The position numbers and the translations under genes were made by a program. Below are positions 3,896-21,988 of a stretch of 22,165 bases of DNA, piece by piece. Position 1 is the first letter of the stretch. Each line of letters starts with the position of its first letter. Source of the stretch: a virus; IMG/VR virus record IMGVR_UViG_3300021959_000447, positions 1 to 22,165 of that record, one strand, 5' to 3'. The notes beneath the pieces are model-generated. The model did no database searches and was not told where the DNA came from. It was given only the letters and a program-made list of their open reading frames with translations.

Positions 3896-5386
3896 TTACT
3901 CTTTAGTAGCATTAAAGTTTACAACTTGGTCATATGTTGTATTGTCACTATCGTAATAATACTCATTTGCTGTATCAATTTCATCTGCACTTGTTGTATA
4001 TATGCCTATTGAAAACTCTTCAACTAATACTGTACCGCTAACTTCACCTCTAACTGCAAAGTGATATACTCCTGGTACTGTAACACCTGTCATATTTGCT
4101 GAAGTATCAACACTAATAAGTCCATTAGTATTAAATGTTGCAAATGGTGGGACTGGACTAAAGTTCATAACACTTACGTTACTTGCACTAGCATTAATCT
4201 CAACATTTGCTGTAGCAGTTTGACCGGATGCAACTGTAAGTACTAAACCTGAAGGTACACTTGCTAATTGTAAATCACCTACTTGAGGACTCACACCAAT
4301 TGATTTTTTAAGATTTGCTTCAGTTTGTCCTGTAGCAGTAAGTAGTCCAGCATCAAAAGTTACTGACATACCTCTACCTGTTATAGCACCTTCGGCAACC
4401 ATATATGATTTAATAGTTCTTGCATCTGCACTAGGATATAAATCAATATATTGTAATGATAAACCGCCTATTTGTGCCGCGGCAACTGATGTACCATCTG
4501 ATGTTGTATAAGCACTATTGTCTGAAGTATTAATAATTGATACATCATCTGACATTCCAAAAATATCTACTTCTGGGCCTAAGTTAGAACCATTTGTGCC
4601 TGTAAAGAAGCCAACTTGTAAACTTGCATTATGTCCACCAACGGTCATAACACTATCTAAACCTGCTGGAGAGTAAAAGTCAACGTCTCCACCATTATTA
4701 CCTGCTGAACAAATAATTACTAAGTTATTATCTTCTAGCTCGTTAAATTTAGCATCTAGCAAACTGTTTTTTGCTGTTGTCCAACAAGCCACAACTGTTT
4801 TAGTTTGGCTTGGTGTATTTGCATTATGATGAACTAATATTGCTTCAAGAGCATCTACCATTCCACCAATTGTTCCTGTATAAGGGTTAGCATTCATGGC
4901 TCTTACATTGTGTAATGTTGCATCTTTGGCTGAACCAATGTTTGCACCAATAATTAAACTAGCCATTGCAGTACCGTGACCATCTGCGTCTGCAAAATCT
5001 GTAGTAAATGCAGTATATAAATTATTTACAGTTCTTCCTGAAAACTCGTCATGGGTAGTATTTACACCTGTGTCTATAAGGTATAGATGCTCTCCTGCAC
5101 CTGTACTACTTGGATTATATGCTGTAGCAGTTGATCCTGCATCATTACAAAGCATCTTTAAATGAGCAGTATTAAAAGAAGGTGTTACTACTGCTTCAAA
5201 ATTGTATGCTTCTGTATGCTGTTTCCCTGCAATAGCCTCCATTTGTTCTGATGTACTTTCAATTTTATATGTTAAATTAAAACTGTACGTTTTAGTGACC
5301 GTTGCACCAGCATCTGTAATGGCTGTTACTGCCGCAGTATTATCAGCATGTGCGGAAGGGTCCATTGTTACGATATACTCTGCCAT
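3896..5386 (-). CDS. Subtilisin-like serine protease (peptidase S8) with N-terminal propeptide-like and C-terminal Ig-like regions
   Basis: A 496-residue serine protease. The S8 catalytic triad is D105 (LYLIDTGVN), H137 (DGHGTAMAS) and S300 (DGTSVAAAQ). The oxyanion asparagine is N230 in CSAGNNGG. Residues 1-70 start MAEYIVTMDP and resemble an inhibitor I9-type prodomain. About 370-470 are strand-rich, resembling an Ig-like or cadherin-like fold. There is no signal peptide or membrane segment, so it should act in the cytoplasm or be packaged in the virion. One oddity is that the proline usual after the catalytic motif (GTSxAxP) is Gln. The start has a good AGGAG ribosome site and a 5' leader of about 45 bases from a minus-strand GATAAATA. 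It could be a prohead-type, self-processing or host-targeting protease; the sequence does not decide. Confidence 0.93.
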   Translation of the reverse strand: MAEYIVTMDPSAHADNTAAVTAITDAGATVTKTYSFNLTYKIESTSEQMEAIAGKQHTEAYNFEAVVTPSFNTAHLKMLCNDAGSTATAYNPSSTGAGEHLYLIDTGVNTTHDEFSGRTVNNLYTAFTTDFADADGHGTAMASLIIGANIGSAKDATLHNVRAMNANPYTGTIGGMVDALEAILVHHNANTPSQTKTVVACWTTAKNSLLDAKFNELEDNNLVIICSAGNNGGDVDFYSPAGLDSVMTVGGHNASLQVGFFTGTNGSNLGPEVDIFGMSDDVSIINTSDNSAYTTSDGTSVAAAQIGGLSLQYIDLYPSADARTIKSYMVAEGAITGRGMSVTFDAGLLTATGQTEANLKKSIGVSPQVGDLQLASVPSGLVLTVASGQTATANVEINASASNVSVMNFSPVPPFATFNTNGLISVDTSANMTGVTVPGVYHFAVRGEVSGTVLVEEFSIGIYTTSADEIDTANEYYYDSDNTTYDQVVNFNATKE

Positions 5387-5470: not shown

Positions 5471-6589
5471 ATGAGCATAAACTATAATATTAAACTTGGT
5501 ACCCAGCCTGGAATGGAAATAGATTGTTCTATGGAGCATTATGTAAAAGTTTTTGCCAAAGAGACAGACAAAACCTTAATAGAATGTATAGGTGACATTT
5601 TACAGGATAAAAACCATGTACATTTGTGTTTGAGTGGAGGATTAGATAGTCAGTTCAGTTTACTATATTGTTTAGAACTAGGCAAAACTGTCACAGCATA
5701 TACATATAGATCTATCTGGAAAGACACAATACTTAATATTGAAGATGTTTATATTGCAGAACAACTTGCAAAAAAACATGGCTTTAAGCATCATATAATT
5801 GATATAGACTTGTTTGACTTTTATGAAAAACGAAAACATTTTGACTATGGTCCTAAATTTTTAAATAATAGTCCACAACTGTCAGTACATTTTTATTTTA
5901 TAGAATTATTAAAAAATAAGTTTAACATAGATCATATATTACTTGGCGGCGATCCTCCAGTATTGAGATATAAAGAAATAGCAGACAAAAGTAAAAAGAT
6001 ATCTATTGTAGGAGAAAACTTCCTACAGGACGTAATGGCACCTTATTACTTTTTTTGTGAAAGCATAGGAGTAGAATGCATAAGAGATGTTTATTTTCAT
6101 AGTCCTGAAGCAGTTTATAAAAGTTACATGAACAATATAGATGTTTTAAAAAATCAAGGTGTCTATGCTAGTACTATTAAACATCATAATGTCACTGAAA
6201 GATATATGAGCGATACTTACATGTACAAATATGCATATTACAAAAATATTATACCAAACTTGATGCCACAACGAAGCGAAACAACTGGATTCGAAAATTT
6301 AAAAAAATTATTAGCAACTGAGTCAGGAATATATAACCAATATGATAAATTATATAGAGATCCTCAAATTGCAATAGAGACAAAATCTGTACAGGCAAGA
6401 GGATTGCAACGACGATATGCCAATGCTGAATTACAGGCAAAGTATGCCGAAAACAAAAAATCTAGACTAGGGAGATTTAGTAGAAACTTTAAATACTCCC
6501 CACTTATTTCAGATATCTACATAAAATATCTAACATATATAGAAGAAAATGAACTAGAATGTATTAACAGATATACGTTCGATTTCTAA
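5471..6589 (+). CDS. PP-loop ATPase, asparagine-synthetase/adenylation-like
   Basis: A 372-residue protein with a clear PP-loop, LSGGLDSQFS (S55 to S60), followed by strand-helix units in the Rossmann-like HUP fold and a second glycine motif, HILLGGDPP (155-163), where asparagine synthetases carry their SGxGxDE segment. Enzymes of this group adenylate a carbonyl so that an amine or sulfur can attack; examples are AsnB, lasso peptide cyclases, tRNA thiolases and QueC. It lacks the N-terminal glutaminase domain of AsnB, so ammonia or an amine would have to come from elsewhere. The C-terminal third (QARGLQRRYA onward) is basic. No good ribosome site precedes ATG 5471. The substrate is unknown; linkage to the protease and radical SAM genes is suggestive only. 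Confidence 0.8.
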   Translation: MSINYNIKLGTQPGMEIDCSMEHYVKVFAKETDKTLIECIGDILQDKNHVHLCLSGGLDSQFSLLYCLELGKTVTAYTYRSIWKDTILNIEDVYIAEQLAKKHGFKHHIIDIDLFDFYEKRKHFDYGPKFLNNSPQLSVHFYFIELLKNKFNIDHILLGGDPPVLRYKEIADKSKKISIVGENFLQDVMAPYYFFCESIGVECIRDVYFHSPEAVYKSYMNNIDVLKNQGVYASTIKHHNVTERYMSDTYMYKYAYYKNIIPNLMPQRSETTGFENLKKLLATESGIYNQYDKLYRDPQIAIETKSVQARGLQRRYANAELQAKYAENKKSRLGRFSRNFKYSPLISDIYIKYLTYIEENELECINRYTFDF

Positions 6590-9560: not shown

Positions 9561-10370
9561 ATGTCAGTAAAAGATATGTCATATCGCGAACGCGGTATCC
9601 TAATAAGTCTAGTTGCACACCAATGCTATTGTGAACCAGACAAGTTATTAGAAGCAAGGCCTGGAATCAGAAGCCTAGACCCAATTAAAAAATTTTTAAA
9701 TAAGCCTTTACCGCCTACATATATAGATGTAGATGGTGCCCAAGCATACGTTTTAAGTGATAAAACAGATGTAATAGTTGCATGTAGAGGTACAGAGCCT
9801 ACAGCAATAAACGATATTCTAGCAGACCTTAAAATGTTTCCGGTGAAACATCATTTAGGTGGAAGAGTACACAGAGGGTTTTATGCAGAGTATGATAAAG
9901 TAATACCAGGCATCAAAGACGCATTAGCAAAACACAATAAGAAAGGTGATAAGACTGTATGGGTTACAGGACATAGTTTAGGTGGGGCAATGGCTGTATT
10001 AGTTGCGGCTGAGTTACAACCTAATGGTGGCTTACATACATTTGGACAACCTAGAGTTGGTGGAAGAACTTTCCTTAAATCTTTAAAGAACATTAGTTAC
10101 TACAGATATAGAAATAATAATGATGCAGTTACTATAGTACCACCTAGTTTTGGTATTGTATTTAAACACGGTGGTGTTTTAAGATATATCAATACAGCAG
10201 GTAATATTAATAAGTCTACATATTGGGAACAGTTTGCAGATAAACTTAATGGACATTGGCAGGCATTAAAATCATTTAACTTAATAGATGGTTTTGCAGA
10301 TCATAGCATGGGTTTATACCACGATCATTTATACAATATGGATGATAACGGTAAACAACTACCAAAATAA
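9561..10370 (+). CDS. Class 3 lipase (alpha/beta hydrolase)
   Basis: A 269-residue lipase/esterase. The nucleophile elbow is VTGHSLGGAMA with S139. The next strand, FGQPRVGG (161-168), is the standard lipase class 3 motif. D188 (RNNNDAV) and H248 (ADHSMGLY) complete the triad, and ACRGTEP (74-80) is the usual oxyanion-side segment. There is no signal peptide, so the protein is cytoplasmic or virion-bound unless released at lysis. It starts at ATG 9561 behind AAGGAG and a late box. The next gene, 9 bases on, encodes a small protein with a hydrophobic start, so a role at a membrane (lysis, entry or phospholipid breakdown) is plausible but not shown. Confidence 0.92.
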   Translation: MSVKDMSYRERGILISLVAHQCYCEPDKLLEARPGIRSLDPIKKFLNKPLPPTYIDVDGAQAYVLSDKTDVIVACRGTEPTAINDILADLKMFPVKHHLGGRVHRGFYAEYDKVIPGIKDALAKHNKKGDKTVWVTGHSLGGAMAVLVAAELQPNGGLHTFGQPRVGGRTFLKSLKNISYYRYRNNNDAVTIVPPSFGIVFKHGGVLRYINTAGNINKSTYWEQFADKLNGHWQALKSFNLIDGFADHSMGLYHDHLYNMDDNGKQLPK

Positions 10371-15801: not shown

Positions 15802-16341
15802 ATGGCCACTCATGCAATGATAGACATAGAGACACTAGGCACTGAGCCTGGAAGTGTAGTATTAAGTGTGGGTGCTGTAAAGTTTGACCCATTTAATAAC
15901 ATAGAACCCAATAACGGCAAACATTGGATGTTAGACGTAGATGCACAAACTAATGTTGGTAGACTCGTAGATGAGAGTACACTAGCATGGTGGGGTAAAC
16001 AAGAACAAAGTATCCAGGACAGAGCATTTTCAGATGAAGGTAGAACTGACATAGAGCCTTTTATGAAGGACTTAAACGGTTGGTTAGTTGGCTGTGATAC
16101 TATATGGTGTCAAGGCCCACAGTTTGATATGGTAATTTTAGAGGATCTGTTTAAAACATTTAACCATCATATGAATTGGTTTTTCTGGCAAGTAAACGAC
16201 TGTAGAACTTTATTTAAGATGATGCCAGTAGACCCTCGTAAAGCAATACAGGAAAATTTACATGACGCTCAGGCAGATGCACATTGGCAAGCCGTATGTG
16301 TTCAGAAGTTTTATAAAGATTACAATATTTTACCTAGATAA
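15802..16341 (+). CDS. dexA: 3'-5' exonuclease, DEDDh type (T4 DexA / Rv2179c-like)
   Basis: A 179-residue nuclease. MIDIETLG carries D8 and E10, QGPQFDMVILED carries D109, and LHDAQADAHWQ carries H154 and D159 (HX4D), giving the full DEDDh set that binds two metal ions. Size and the AMIDIETLGTEPGSVVLSVG opening fit the DexA/Rv2179c group, which trims single-stranded DNA or RNA. A consensus early promoter and a GGAG site at good spacing show that it is expressed before late genes, as T4 dexA is. It is followed by a 7-bp hairpin. Confidence 0.85.
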   Translation: MATHAMIDIETLGTEPGSVVLSVGAVKFDPFNNIEPNNGKHWMLDVDAQTNVGRLVDESTLAWWGKQEQSIQDRAFSDEGRTDIEPFMKDLNGWLVGCDTIWCQGPQFDMVILEDLFKTFNHHMNWFFWQVNDCRTLFKMMPVDPRKAIQENLHDAQADAHWQAVCVQKFYKDYNILPR

Positions 16342-19657: not shown

Positions 19658-19993
19658 GTGGGACAATATACTGATAAAATAAATGCTATAGCAGAAGACT
19701 TTGCTGTAATAGACCATTATGAAAGTTTGTCAGCCTTAGAAGCCCGAGACGGAATGATGATTATACATTACAATCATGGTGGTAAACAAATTACATTTAA
19801 CAGAGATAGCACCTATGAAGAAACGTCAGGAAAGGCAGGAGAGGTAATTATTATTCCTGCTTTAGACCAAGACTACATAAATTTAAAAGAGAGGTACACA
19901 TCAGACACCTGGGGTTCCAGAATAGGAAAATGGTGGAAACGTGTTACTAATAAAAAATATAACCCTAACACATGGTGGATTGACAACGATTAA
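19658..19993 (+). CDS. Unknown 111-residue protein, GTG start, predicted leaderless
   Basis: GTG 19658 is chosen because the late box stands at the same distance as for other leaderless starts, and no in-frame ATG exists before residue 33. There is no ribosome site. Residues 10-75 look alpha/beta (AEDFAVIDHYESLSALEARD). The C-terminus is basic and Trp-rich (GKWWKRVTNKKYNPNTWWID). The end of the gene contains the -35 of the next early promoter. No family recognised. Confidence 0.7.
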   Translation: MGQYTDKINAIAEDFAVIDHYESLSALEARDGMMIIHYNHGGKQITFNRDSTYEETSGKAGEVIIIPALDQDYINLKERYTSDTWGSRIGKWWKRVTNKKYNPNTWWIDND

Positions 19994-20007
19994 CTTTATG
20001 TTATACT
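19980..20007 (+). promoter_or_regulatory. Sigma70-like early promoter for the 76-residue gene
   Basis: TTGACA (19980-19985) inside the previous coding region, 16-base spacer, TATACT (20002-20007). ATG follows 17 bases after the -10, giving a leader of only about 10 bases. Confidence 0.75.
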
Positions 20008-20024
20008 AGAAGAAATTAAAAAAT

Positions 20025-20255
20025 ATGCAAGATAAAAAAAGAACAGAAGACGACCAGGTTAATATACAAGATGTTTGTAAACATTTAGACATCGGGAGAT
20101 ATGACTTAATAGAACTTTCAGCCTGGGTAGCCAGAGCAGAAAATTTAAGACCTGTAGAAGCATTAAAAAAATTATTAACTATTGAATCTTTAGAAGTTTA
20201 TATTAAAGAACTAAAAGAGAAATTAGTTAAAGAAGAGTTTAACAAAAAGTTTTGA
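20025..20255 (+). CDS. Unknown 76-residue charged helical protein
   Basis: A short early gene with a weak AGAAGAAATT leader. The protein is helical and highly charged: VCKHLDIGRYDLIELSAWVA resembles a small helical bundle, and ELKEKLVKEEFNKKF ends it as a coiled-coil-like tail. It could be DNA-binding, but no helix-turn-helix pattern is convincing. Its stop TGA is also the first three bases of the stem that opens the structured RNA. Confidence 0.65.
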   Translation: MQDKKRTEDDQVNIQDVCKHLDIGRYDLIELSAWVARAENLRPVEALKKLLTIESLEVYIKELKEKLVKEEFNKKF

Positions 20256-20475
20256 GGAGCCCGTGTGGTATTTCGTAAATTGGGTATGGCAGAAAAAGTG
20301 AAAAGTGTCGCAAACATATCACTCCATATAAATTCCCTAAGTGTACCGCTCCTCACACCTATTTATCAATAGGGGGTTGAAAGCCTCGGGTAAGGGACAG
20401 GTTCACGAAACAACACCAGTCCACAATTTAGTACACGACATGAGTGTAGACTGTGAACCATCCCTCCAGTTTTTT
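20253..20475 (+). ncRNA. Probable structured noncoding RNA, two folded domains and a 3' T-run
   Basis: Domain 1: TGAGGAGC (20253-20260) pairs perfectly with GCTCCTCA (20348-20355). Inside it GGTA (20267-20270) pairs with TACC (20344-20347), TATGG (20285-20289) with CCATA (20324-20328), and AGTGA (20297-20301) with TCACT (20319-20323). Domain 2: AGGGA (20393-20397) with TCCCT (20461-20465), GGTTCAC (20400-20406) with GTGAACC (20453-20459), AGTC (20418-20421) with GACT (20449-20452), and TACAC (20432-20436) with GTGTA (20444-20448) around loop GACATGA. A T6 run at 20470-20475 ends it against tRNA-Glu. A CTATT/AATAG hairpin (20359-20372) joins the domains. It lacks a convincing ORF and matches no RNA family I know. 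T4 also carries small stable RNAs beside its tRNAs, which is a useful parallel. Confidence 0.6.
20360..20367 (-). promoter_or_regulatory. Minus-strand GATAAATA inside the structured RNA region
   Basis: GATAAATA on the minus strand, in the linker hairpin between the two RNA domains. If active it would make a late antisense RNA over domain 1 and the 76-residue gene. It may equally be chance. Confidence 0.3.
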
Positions 20476-20550
20476 GCCGCATTCGTCTAGTGGTTAGGAC
20501 ACCGGGTTTTCATCTCGGCAACAGGAGTTCGATTCTCCTATGCGGTACCA
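20476..20550 (+). tRNA. tRNA-Glu (anticodon UUC), CCA encoded
   Basis: A 75-base cloverleaf. The acceptor GCCGCAT pairs with ATGCGGT (G1-U72 wobble). The anticodon arm is CCGGG-TTTTCAT-CTCGG with anticodon TTC, and the T-arm is AGGAG-TTCGATT-CTCCT, then A and an encoded CCA. Its 5' end touches the T-run of the structured RNA. Confidence 0.95.
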
Positions 20551-20560
20551 TCTTATAGGC

Positions 20561-20568
20561 TATAAATA
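20561..20568 (+). promoter_or_regulatory. Perfect T4 late box (TATAAATA), leaderless spacing
   Basis: TATAAATA ten bases after tRNA-Glu, then five bases (TATAC) to the ATG of the ATP-grasp gene. No ribosome site intervenes. Confidence 0.75.
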
Positions 20569-20573
20569 TATAC

Positions 20574-21581
20574 ATGATAGTAATCATATATCCTACTGGC
20601 ACAAAACGAAGTGTGCATCTAAATCACTTTGTTGTTGAAGCAGAAAAAGCCGATCCTGAATGTAAAGTAATTTCATCTGAAGAATTTTCACTGACTCAAA
20701 TAGATAAATGGCCAGATAATACTAAATTTATTATCCGAGTAGGCTCCCATTACATAAATGAAGTGTTGCCCGTATTACGACGATTGTGGCATAAAGGAAT
20801 GTATACTATTTTCCCTAATGTACCTGCTATTAATACATGTTCAAATAAAATCTTATTCTGGCAAGCATGTCTTAAAAATAATATAGAAGTACCAATGACT
20901 AAGATATTTACAAAGGAAGGTGATGATCATATCCCTTATACGTCCACAGATTTTACAGAGTTTGGAGATTGTGTAATTAAACCTAGTATTGGCTCCCTGG
21001 GTAGTGGTATATACTATTGTAAATCTAATGAAGTTAAAAATAAAATATCACAGATAATTGCTAGTGAAGACGAATTTTATAATAACTGTGATATAATTGT
21101 ACAAAAGGAAATTAAAAACAAAAAAAATATACCACAAAGCATAAGAGTATTTTGTTTTAATGGTGAGCCTACTGTAAGTATTACCTTAACAAATACAAAA
21201 GAACTACACGACAAAGCAGACGCAAGCCTTAAAGTAAAGCCTGAAGTGTTATATAACGAAGACGGAGAAGTTATAGACAGCATAGGAACAGATTTAGACT
21301 TTGAATCAGTATCTAATCTAAATAGAGGTGGTGTTGCAGGACCGTATTTTCCTTCTGATAAATTAAAGCAAATATGCAGAAACGTATGTAAAGCAACAGG
21401 TATAGAGTTTACAGCAATAGACTTTATACAAGATGAGTTAGATAATTTTATATGCTTAGAAGCAAATATATCTCCTCATTTAATTAGAGCGTTTATGATT
21501 TATAAAGGCAGGGTTAACCATGCAGAGATGATATGTAATCATCTTCTTGACAATTCTAATAAAGACAGTATAATATTATGA
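20574..21581 (+). CDS. ATP-grasp ligase-like protein, predicted leaderless
   Basis: A 335-residue ATP-grasp enzyme. CVIKPSIGSLGSGIYY (133-148) holds the ATP-binding lysine and glycine loop. DIIVQKEI (173-180) is the strand that contacts adenine. SIRVFCFNGEPTVSITL follows, and FTAIDFIQDELDNFICLEANIS supplies the metal ligands D283, E296 and N298. This group, which includes RimK-like and glutathione-synthetase-like enzymes, joins a carboxylate to an amine through an acyl phosphate, often adding amino acids to protein ends. The N-terminal 100 residues are the usual substrate-side domain (VVEAEKADPE, RVGSHYINEVLP). The start is set by the late box at five bases. It overlaps the metalloprotein gene by four bases. 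Confidence 0.88.
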   Translation: MIVIIYPTGTKRSVHLNHFVVEAEKADPECKVISSEEFSLTQIDKWPDNTKFIIRVGSHYINEVLPVLRRLWHKGMYTIFPNVPAINTCSNKILFWQACLKNNIEVPMTKIFTKEGDDHIPYTSTDFTEFGDCVIKPSIGSLGSGIYYCKSNEVKNKISQIIASEDEFYNNCDIIVQKEIKNKKNIPQSIRVFCFNGEPTVSITLTNTKELHDKADASLKVKPEVLYNEDGEVIDSIGTDLDFESVSNLNRGGVAGPYFPSDKLKQICRNVCKATGIEFTAIDFIQDELDNFICLEANISPHLIRAFMIYKGRVNHAEMICNHLLDNSNKDSIIL

Positions 21582-21988
21582 TGAGTGTACTAATAAACGG
21601 AAGAATTAAAAACAAGAAAAAAGTTGAAGATTTTGTTTATAACACTTTATTTGATCTTATGCCCAGACTGAAACGTACTGTGTATATAGATATTGATGTA
21701 GTAACAACATGTGATGCAGGTAATTCTGCATTATGTTGGGGCGACAATGAGGAAGTGCAGATAGAACTAGCACGTGAATCTAATGGTAAAAAATTTACTC
21801 TAGAGGAAATGATGTTACACTTAGCTCACGAACTAGTACATGCAAAACAATTTATTAGAGGGGAGTTACATCCTGGTTTAAAGAATTGGCGAAATGTAGA
21901 CTACTCAAATACATCATACAAAGACACCCCTTGGGAAAAGGAAGCATACTTACTCGAGGATGAAATTTTAAATAAATATTGGAAATAA
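21578..21988 (+). CDS. SprT-like zinc metalloprotein
   Basis: A 136-residue protein with the zinc-binding HExxH motif in HLAHELVHAKQF (H84, E85, H88) and a possible third ligand in PWEKEAYLLEDE (E120 or E122), as in SprT/Wss1-like proteases common in T4-like marine phages. CWGDNEEVQIELARES is the beta segment ahead of the active helix. Two ATG codons stand in tandem at 21578 and 21581; the first overlaps the previous stop (ATGA) and is preferred. It could cleave DNA-protein crosslinks or a virion protein; the target is unknown. Co-expressed with the ATP-grasp gene. Confidence 0.85.
   Translation: MMSVLINGRIKNKKKVEDFVYNTLFDLMPRLKRTVYIDIDVVTTCDAGNSALCWGDNEEVQIELARESNGKKFTLEEMMLHLAHELVHAKQFIRGELHPGLKNWRNVDYSNTSYKDTPWEKEAYLLEDEILNKYWK

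Follow-up and report, generated by a model that had tools for sequence, protein, structure and literature searches.

Bacteriophage T4 encodes two RNAs of about 120-140 nt, rnaC (species 1) and rnaD (species 2), beside its tRNA cluster, and their role is unclear. Conserved structured RNAs have also been found in marine metagenomes and T4-like cyanophages, namely manA (RF01745) and wcaG (PMC2864571), candidate regulatory RNAs of marine phages which were described in the 5' UTRs of metabolic genes. A third group, the HDV-like theta ribozymes of gut phages, consists of ribozymes tied to phage tRNAs (PMC10879173). The two RNAs analyzed here, D1 and D2, resemble rnaC and rnaD as phage RNAs beside tRNAs, manA and wcaG as conserved structured phage RNAs, and the theta ribozymes as structured RNA associated with phage tRNAs (PMC10879173). 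Conserved phage RNAs are a kind already known, while the two families are new.

Closer comparison set D1 and D2 apart from each of these systems. The sequence-only reading of this locus had drawn a parallel to the small stable RNAs of T4, which held for the position beside tRNAs but not for the RNAs themselves, since rnaC and rnaD match neither the D1 model (R1) nor the D2 model (R2). Neither model matched in the T4 tRNA region, and in the whole T4 genome the best R1 score was 13.9 bits (E = 0.47) and R2 gave no convincing match either. In contrast to manA and wcaG with their place in the 5' UTRs of metabolic genes, neither of which gave a cmscan match to D1 or D2 at E up to 10, no family relation was seen. 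They also differ from the theta ribozymes in matching no Rfam ribozyme, and D2 is built instead from a 5' hairpin, a continuous P1-P2 helix and a two-way inner arm. When the window and the homologues were compared with Rfam 15 (4227 models), only tRNA was detected at the gathering threshold, and permissive scans to E = 10 returned nothing credible over D1 or D2, so that the earlier statement that the region belongs to no known family holds against this release.

Searches of known genomes gave a similar picture. A blastn comparison with 50,697 phage records gave no convincing match to D1 or D2, and neither did the R1 and R2 models in seven cultured phages, which suggests that the phages carrying them come from groups still uncultured. 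Two candidates were rejected as chance matches with several broken pairs: Sinorhizobium phage phiM12 (R2, 19.3 bits), where the stretch enters an annotated CDS and looks coding, and P-SSM2 (R1, 17.8 bits), where the match lies within a CDS. Two scans of 84,980 cellular genomes with D1 patterns yielded 0 and 11 matches, the latter weak and chance-like. These eleven cellular contigs, found with a 20-base D1 pattern, scored at most 20.4 bits, and the three best lacked parts of the core or P1. By sequence comparison, both families have so far been found in uncultured-virus contigs only.

Layout of the locus

The window, i.e. the whole stretch of DNA analyzed, is a 22,165-base IMG/VR virus record from an uncultured phage. 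The region of interest (20253-20475) is flanked by the stop codon of a 76-aa ORF on its 5' side and by tRNA-Glu on its 3' side, with the following features:

19980-20007, + strand: putative promoter, TTGACA-16-TATACT with TG before the -10 box (sigma-70 match 11/12; consensus match only)
20025-20255, + strand: 76-aa ORF, whose TGA stop doubles as bases 1-3 of the D1 outer stem
20253-20355, + strand: D1, whole element (R1 model 78.8 bits; covariation in 40 sequences; 60 distinct homologues)
20253-20260, + strand: D1 P1, 5' strand (covariation)
20267-20270, + strand: D1 P2, 5' strand, GGUN (100% paired)
20271-20281, + strand: D1 core UUUCGUAWAUU (invariant or nearly so)
20282-20284, + strand: D1 P3, 5' strand, RGG (G-C to A-U compensated, 100% paired)
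20285-20334, + strand: D1 variable insert capping P3 (length variation in homologues)
20335-20337, + strand: D1 P3, 3' strand, CCY (covariation)
20338-20343, + strand: D1 3' internal loop, NNNGUG (GUG invariant)
20344-20347, + strand: D1 P2, 3' strand, NACY (covariation)
20348-20355, + strand: D1 P1, 3' strand (covariation)
20371-20468, + strand: D2, whole element (R2 model 115.2 bits; 42 distinct sequences aligned)
20373-20387, + strand: D2 H1, 5' hairpin (stem of at least 4 pairs in 47/51 distinct D2 sequences)
20389-20406, + strand: D2 P1+P2, 5' strand, GG..AGGGA-CA-GGUUCAC (covariation)
20413-20421, + strand: D2 inner arm, strand A (ACAC) and AGUC (inner-arm pairing analysis)
20432-20439, + strand: D2 inner arm, strand B (UACAC) and GAC, the partner of AGUC
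20444-20448, + strand: D2 inner arm, strand C (GUGUA), with complementarity to A as well as to B
20453-20467, + strand: D2 P1+P2, 3' strand (covariation)
20470-20475, + strand: U6 after D2 (U-rich in 40/51 distinct D2 copies)
20476-20550, + strand: tRNA-Glu (UUC) (Rfam tRNA match at gathering threshold)

The 8-bp stem formed by 20253-20260 and 20348-20355 was present exactly where the sequence-only reading had placed it, as were the T6 run and the tRNA-Glu gene directly abutting it, and no reading frame was convincingly open across the stretch. The order in the window is promoter, 76-aa ORF, D1, D2 and tRNA-Glu. Comparison of the 76-aa ORF with PHROG and Pfam gave no match; a similar gene is located upstream of D1 in contig L003. 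Because the promoter at 19980-20007 lies upstream and a simple scan of 19900-20700 found no terminator-like site in between, D1 and D2 probably share one transcript with tRNA-Glu, as had been proposed, and with the 76-aa gene. RNase P cleavage at the tRNA 5' end, here 20476, is expected from general tRNA biology, and on such a shared transcript it would free the 3' side of the structured RNA. No promoter was placed at D1 P1 in the window.

Several other genes lie in the window. A RimK-like ATP-grasp protein (20574-21578) directly follows tRNA-Glu, and next to it lies a small HExxH protein (21578-21985; PHROG 10499, weak match to Pfam M91). The window further encodes an Rv2179c-like 3'-5' exoribonuclease (15802-16338; PF16473), a subtilase-family protease (3896-5386, - strand) and a class-3 lipase-like protein (9561-10367, + strand), as well as a QueC/asparagine-synthase-like protein (5471-6586, + strand) and a radical-SAM-like protein (1823-2905, + strand), the latter two with matches below the cut-off.

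Homologues and structures of D1 and D2

Folding energy contributed little to the decision whether these RNAs are real. The whole stretch folded with z = -1.9, and 8 of 200 shuffles folded as well, while z was -2.8 for D1 alone and -1.8 for D2 alone. The native sequence was therefore modestly better than shuffled controls, too weak a difference to decide, and the case rests on homologues. A search via the downstream RimK-like protein, for which no relative was found among viral contigs, and via the 76-aa protein yielded none. The protein encoded at 19658-19990 led to five related contigs, and D1 was recognizable by blastn in L003, L004/L005 and L006, directly upstream of tRNA-Glu in L003 and L004/L005 and without a tRNA in L006.

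A 19-base pattern of the D1 core retrieved 75 stretches from IMG/VR, nearly all of them full homologues, which left 60 distinct sequences after removal of duplicates. Since this pattern forced part of the core conservation, a second scan was performed in which four core positions could vary; most of its matches belonged to this family, and the core was still conserved. A third pattern with other positions freed added chance matches only, and nine contigs from a relaxed pattern as well as L106 from another pattern were likewise dismissed as chance. Covariation was computed on 40 aligned D1 sequences, in which 98.3% of all cells were paired and the covariation score reached 0.757, while shuffles gave 0.203 and slid controls no more than 0.142. 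In P1 all eight pairs had changed on both sides among homologues (96.9% of cells paired). P2 and P3 each contained one compensated pair, the last pair of P2 being A-U, C-G or U-A. The two strands of P1 are separated by 42 to 111 nt, and they enclose the near-invariant core UGGUnUUUCGUAwAUUrGG ... UCCynnnGUGnACy. The core was unchanged even between contigs in which homologous proteins encoded nearby share only 35% identity; a core of about 40 nt under such constraint implies that D1 has a specific partner or activity. Both sides of a candidate pseudoknot, CG(10-11) with CG(22-23), were nearly invariant.

For D2, a gapped pattern identified 20 stretches and a looser one at least 119, from which 39 new loci were confirmed by the model at E of 2e-7 or better. 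D2 has at least 42 distinct homologues, most of them without D1 nearby. Across 42 distinct sequences, 96.5% of the P1+P2 cells were paired and both sides had changed in seven of the 14 pairs, and as with D1 the covariation was far above shuffles and slid controls. Inside this helix two alternatives would compete, a nested stem versus a hairpin plus a pseudoknot through AGUC/GAC. The same strand C can pair with both A and B in 10 of 19 sequence clusters, compared to 1.0 expected from letter shuffles. Because one strand of the inner arm is complementary to two alternative partners, D2 may act as a conformational switch; judged from the letters, the complementarity would allow the mutually exclusive alternative pairings by which riboswitch- or attenuator-like elements are recognized. 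A loop-loop pairing between UAAAUUG of D1 and CAAUUUA of D2 was rejected, as the D1 changes of L089 and L094 have no counterpart in D2.

With compensated stems in the homologues of both elements, the proposal that the stretch is a structured non-coding RNA was confirmed. The sequence-only reading had regarded it as a single two-domain RNA, which was not borne out: D1 mostly occurs without D2 in its phages, and D2 mostly without D1 in its own. Its second domain is present as described, but the element begins earlier and the 5' hairpin at 20373-20387 had been missed, while the innermost segments can pair but represent only one of the two competing pairings. On comparative grounds, D1 and D2 are almost certainly two independent conserved structured RNA families, both of them real. 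They allow annotation of phage intergenic regions left blank by current pipelines and are immediate targets for work at the bench.

Occurrence and genomic context

Of 24 records searched whole for D1 with the covariance model, 21, ranging up to 340 kb, contained it exactly once; the three without D1 had been chosen for D2. D2 was likewise single-copy in the ten records holding its motif. At twelve D1 loci D2 followed downstream, in the order D1-D2, and no D1 was present in the surrounding sequence examined for the 39 newly added D2 loci.

In a survey of same-strand neighbours, a tRNA was located within 150 nt downstream of D1 in 28 of 60 distinct copies and within about 230 nt in 33. These were mostly tRNA-Glu, but also tRNA-Thr, -Asp, -Lys and -Trp, and the remaining copies preceded various protein genes. 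D1 often directly follows a stop codon, and the next gene or tRNA is a short way downstream, with 20-35 nt up to the start codon in some copies. Upstream of D1, 14 of 59 copies have a sigma-70 match in 11 or 12 of the 12 consensus positions; in 12 of these 14 the -10 box ends 6-8 nt before the first base of P1, which would place the transcript start at P1. Where no tRNA was present, P1 was longer (median 14 versus 10 pairs, p = 0.005) and was followed by more U in the next 10 nt (5 versus 3, p = 0.002), although many of the sequences are related and both p values overstate independence. The longer P1 and additional U of the tRNA-less copies would suit an RNA with defined ends.

D2 precedes tRNA-Glu or is located between a stop codon and the next start, often beginning at the upstream stop codon and ending close to the next ribosome-binding site. 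A Shine-Dalgarno-like motif and start codon were found within 60 nt in 23 of 51 copies, and a tRNA-Glu-like start followed in ten of the 51. At least five T were present in the 10 nt after the D2 stem in 40 of 51 distinct copies, including the T6 of the window. No coherent gene set was apparent after D2.

The HExxH protein is encoded near D1 in several distant phages, directly after D1 in L055, L058 and L060; as a Zn-peptidase-like gene linked to D1 it was rejected, being near D1 in a subset only. D1 is immediately preceded by the end of a 179-aa gene in L004, L006, L017 and L018; in L004 this gene is homologous to that of the exoribonuclease of the window (15802-16338).

Proposed roles and alternatives

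As a pair, D1 and D2 are tentatively best described as a stand-alone small RNA acting in trans and a cis-acting leader or attenuator, a reading of the comparative data that we hold with less than even confidence. In the window both would be transcribed with tRNA-Glu from the 19980-20007 promoter through the 76-aa gene, and would be released when RNase P cuts at the 5' end of the tRNA. D1, encoded once per genome, would have its ends protected by the closed outer helix, while the invariant internal-loop core would bind a partner common to many hosts and serve as a decoy for, or regulator of, a factor related to RNA or translation. Neither D1 nor D2 was complementary to the tRNA-Glu or to E. coli rRNA beyond chance level. 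The assignment of D1 as a gene of its own is based on its single copy, differing neighbours, putative promoters just before P1 in some copies, and the longer P1 and additional U where no tRNA follows; compensated structure and single copy are what is expected of a small structured RNA gene, and D1 shows both. D2, with its conserved core and terminator-like 3' end, would control expression of the next gene or tRNA through the two mutually exclusive pairings of its inner arm, as suggested by its placement from stop codon to ribosome-binding site, the U-rich tail and the two-way arm itself. That D1, acting in trans on a factor shared by many bacterial hosts, and D2, as a three-strand switch, together constitute an RNA-only control module of a phage tRNA operon is a speculative extension which we consider unlikely.

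Its placement after stop codons and a short way ahead of other genes or tRNAs also permits a cis reading of D1, as a leader or riboswitch-like element for the gene or tRNA that follows. The copies 20-35 nt from a start codon, together with a conserved core and variable closing stem that resemble an aptamer, are consistent with such a role. It is nevertheless rather unlikely, since the downstream genes form no coherent set, each D1-bearing record holds one copy, and P1 forms a closed, often terminator-like stem without an obvious competitor.

It is improbable that D1 and D2 are elaborate transcript ends, terminators or 3'-exonuclease blocks between phage operons with no further role. Stems are followed by U-runs in many copies and D1 often comes right after a stop codon, but simple terminators need neither an invariant core nor a three-strand arm, and in many D1 copies a tRNA follows directly and the U-run is missing. 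By analogy with the theta ribozymes, which provide a precedent linked to phage tRNAs (PMC10879173), one or both RNAs could be ribozymes whose self-cleavage cuts polycistronic transcripts and releases the leader of the tRNA. Intergenic position near tRNAs and an invariant core with variable helices would fit; however, no Rfam ribozyme family matched even at E = 10 and no nested double pseudoknot of the HDV type was seen in D2, making this quite improbable. A DNA-level element (origin, packaging or recombination site) that simply happens to be an inverted repeat would fit the one copy per D1-bearing record but is hardly credible, as 27 of 40 sequences have G-U as the first pair of D1 P2, at its base, and such a pair points to RNA rather than DNA, and as putative promoters of some copies are positioned to start transcription at P1.

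Separately, a third recurring stem was observed, consisting of a variable P1, A(C)UUUU, a G+C-rich hairpin, GUUUnnA and P1'. It is located after D1 in L008 and L066, about 75 nt after the D1 core in L014 and L025, and after tRNA-Glu in L083 and L086. A regular expression for this stem produced six distinct matches versus three in shuffled sequence, a count that alone is not significant. Four of the six matches lie near D1 or D2 and look alike, and the stem is possibly another small RNA family.
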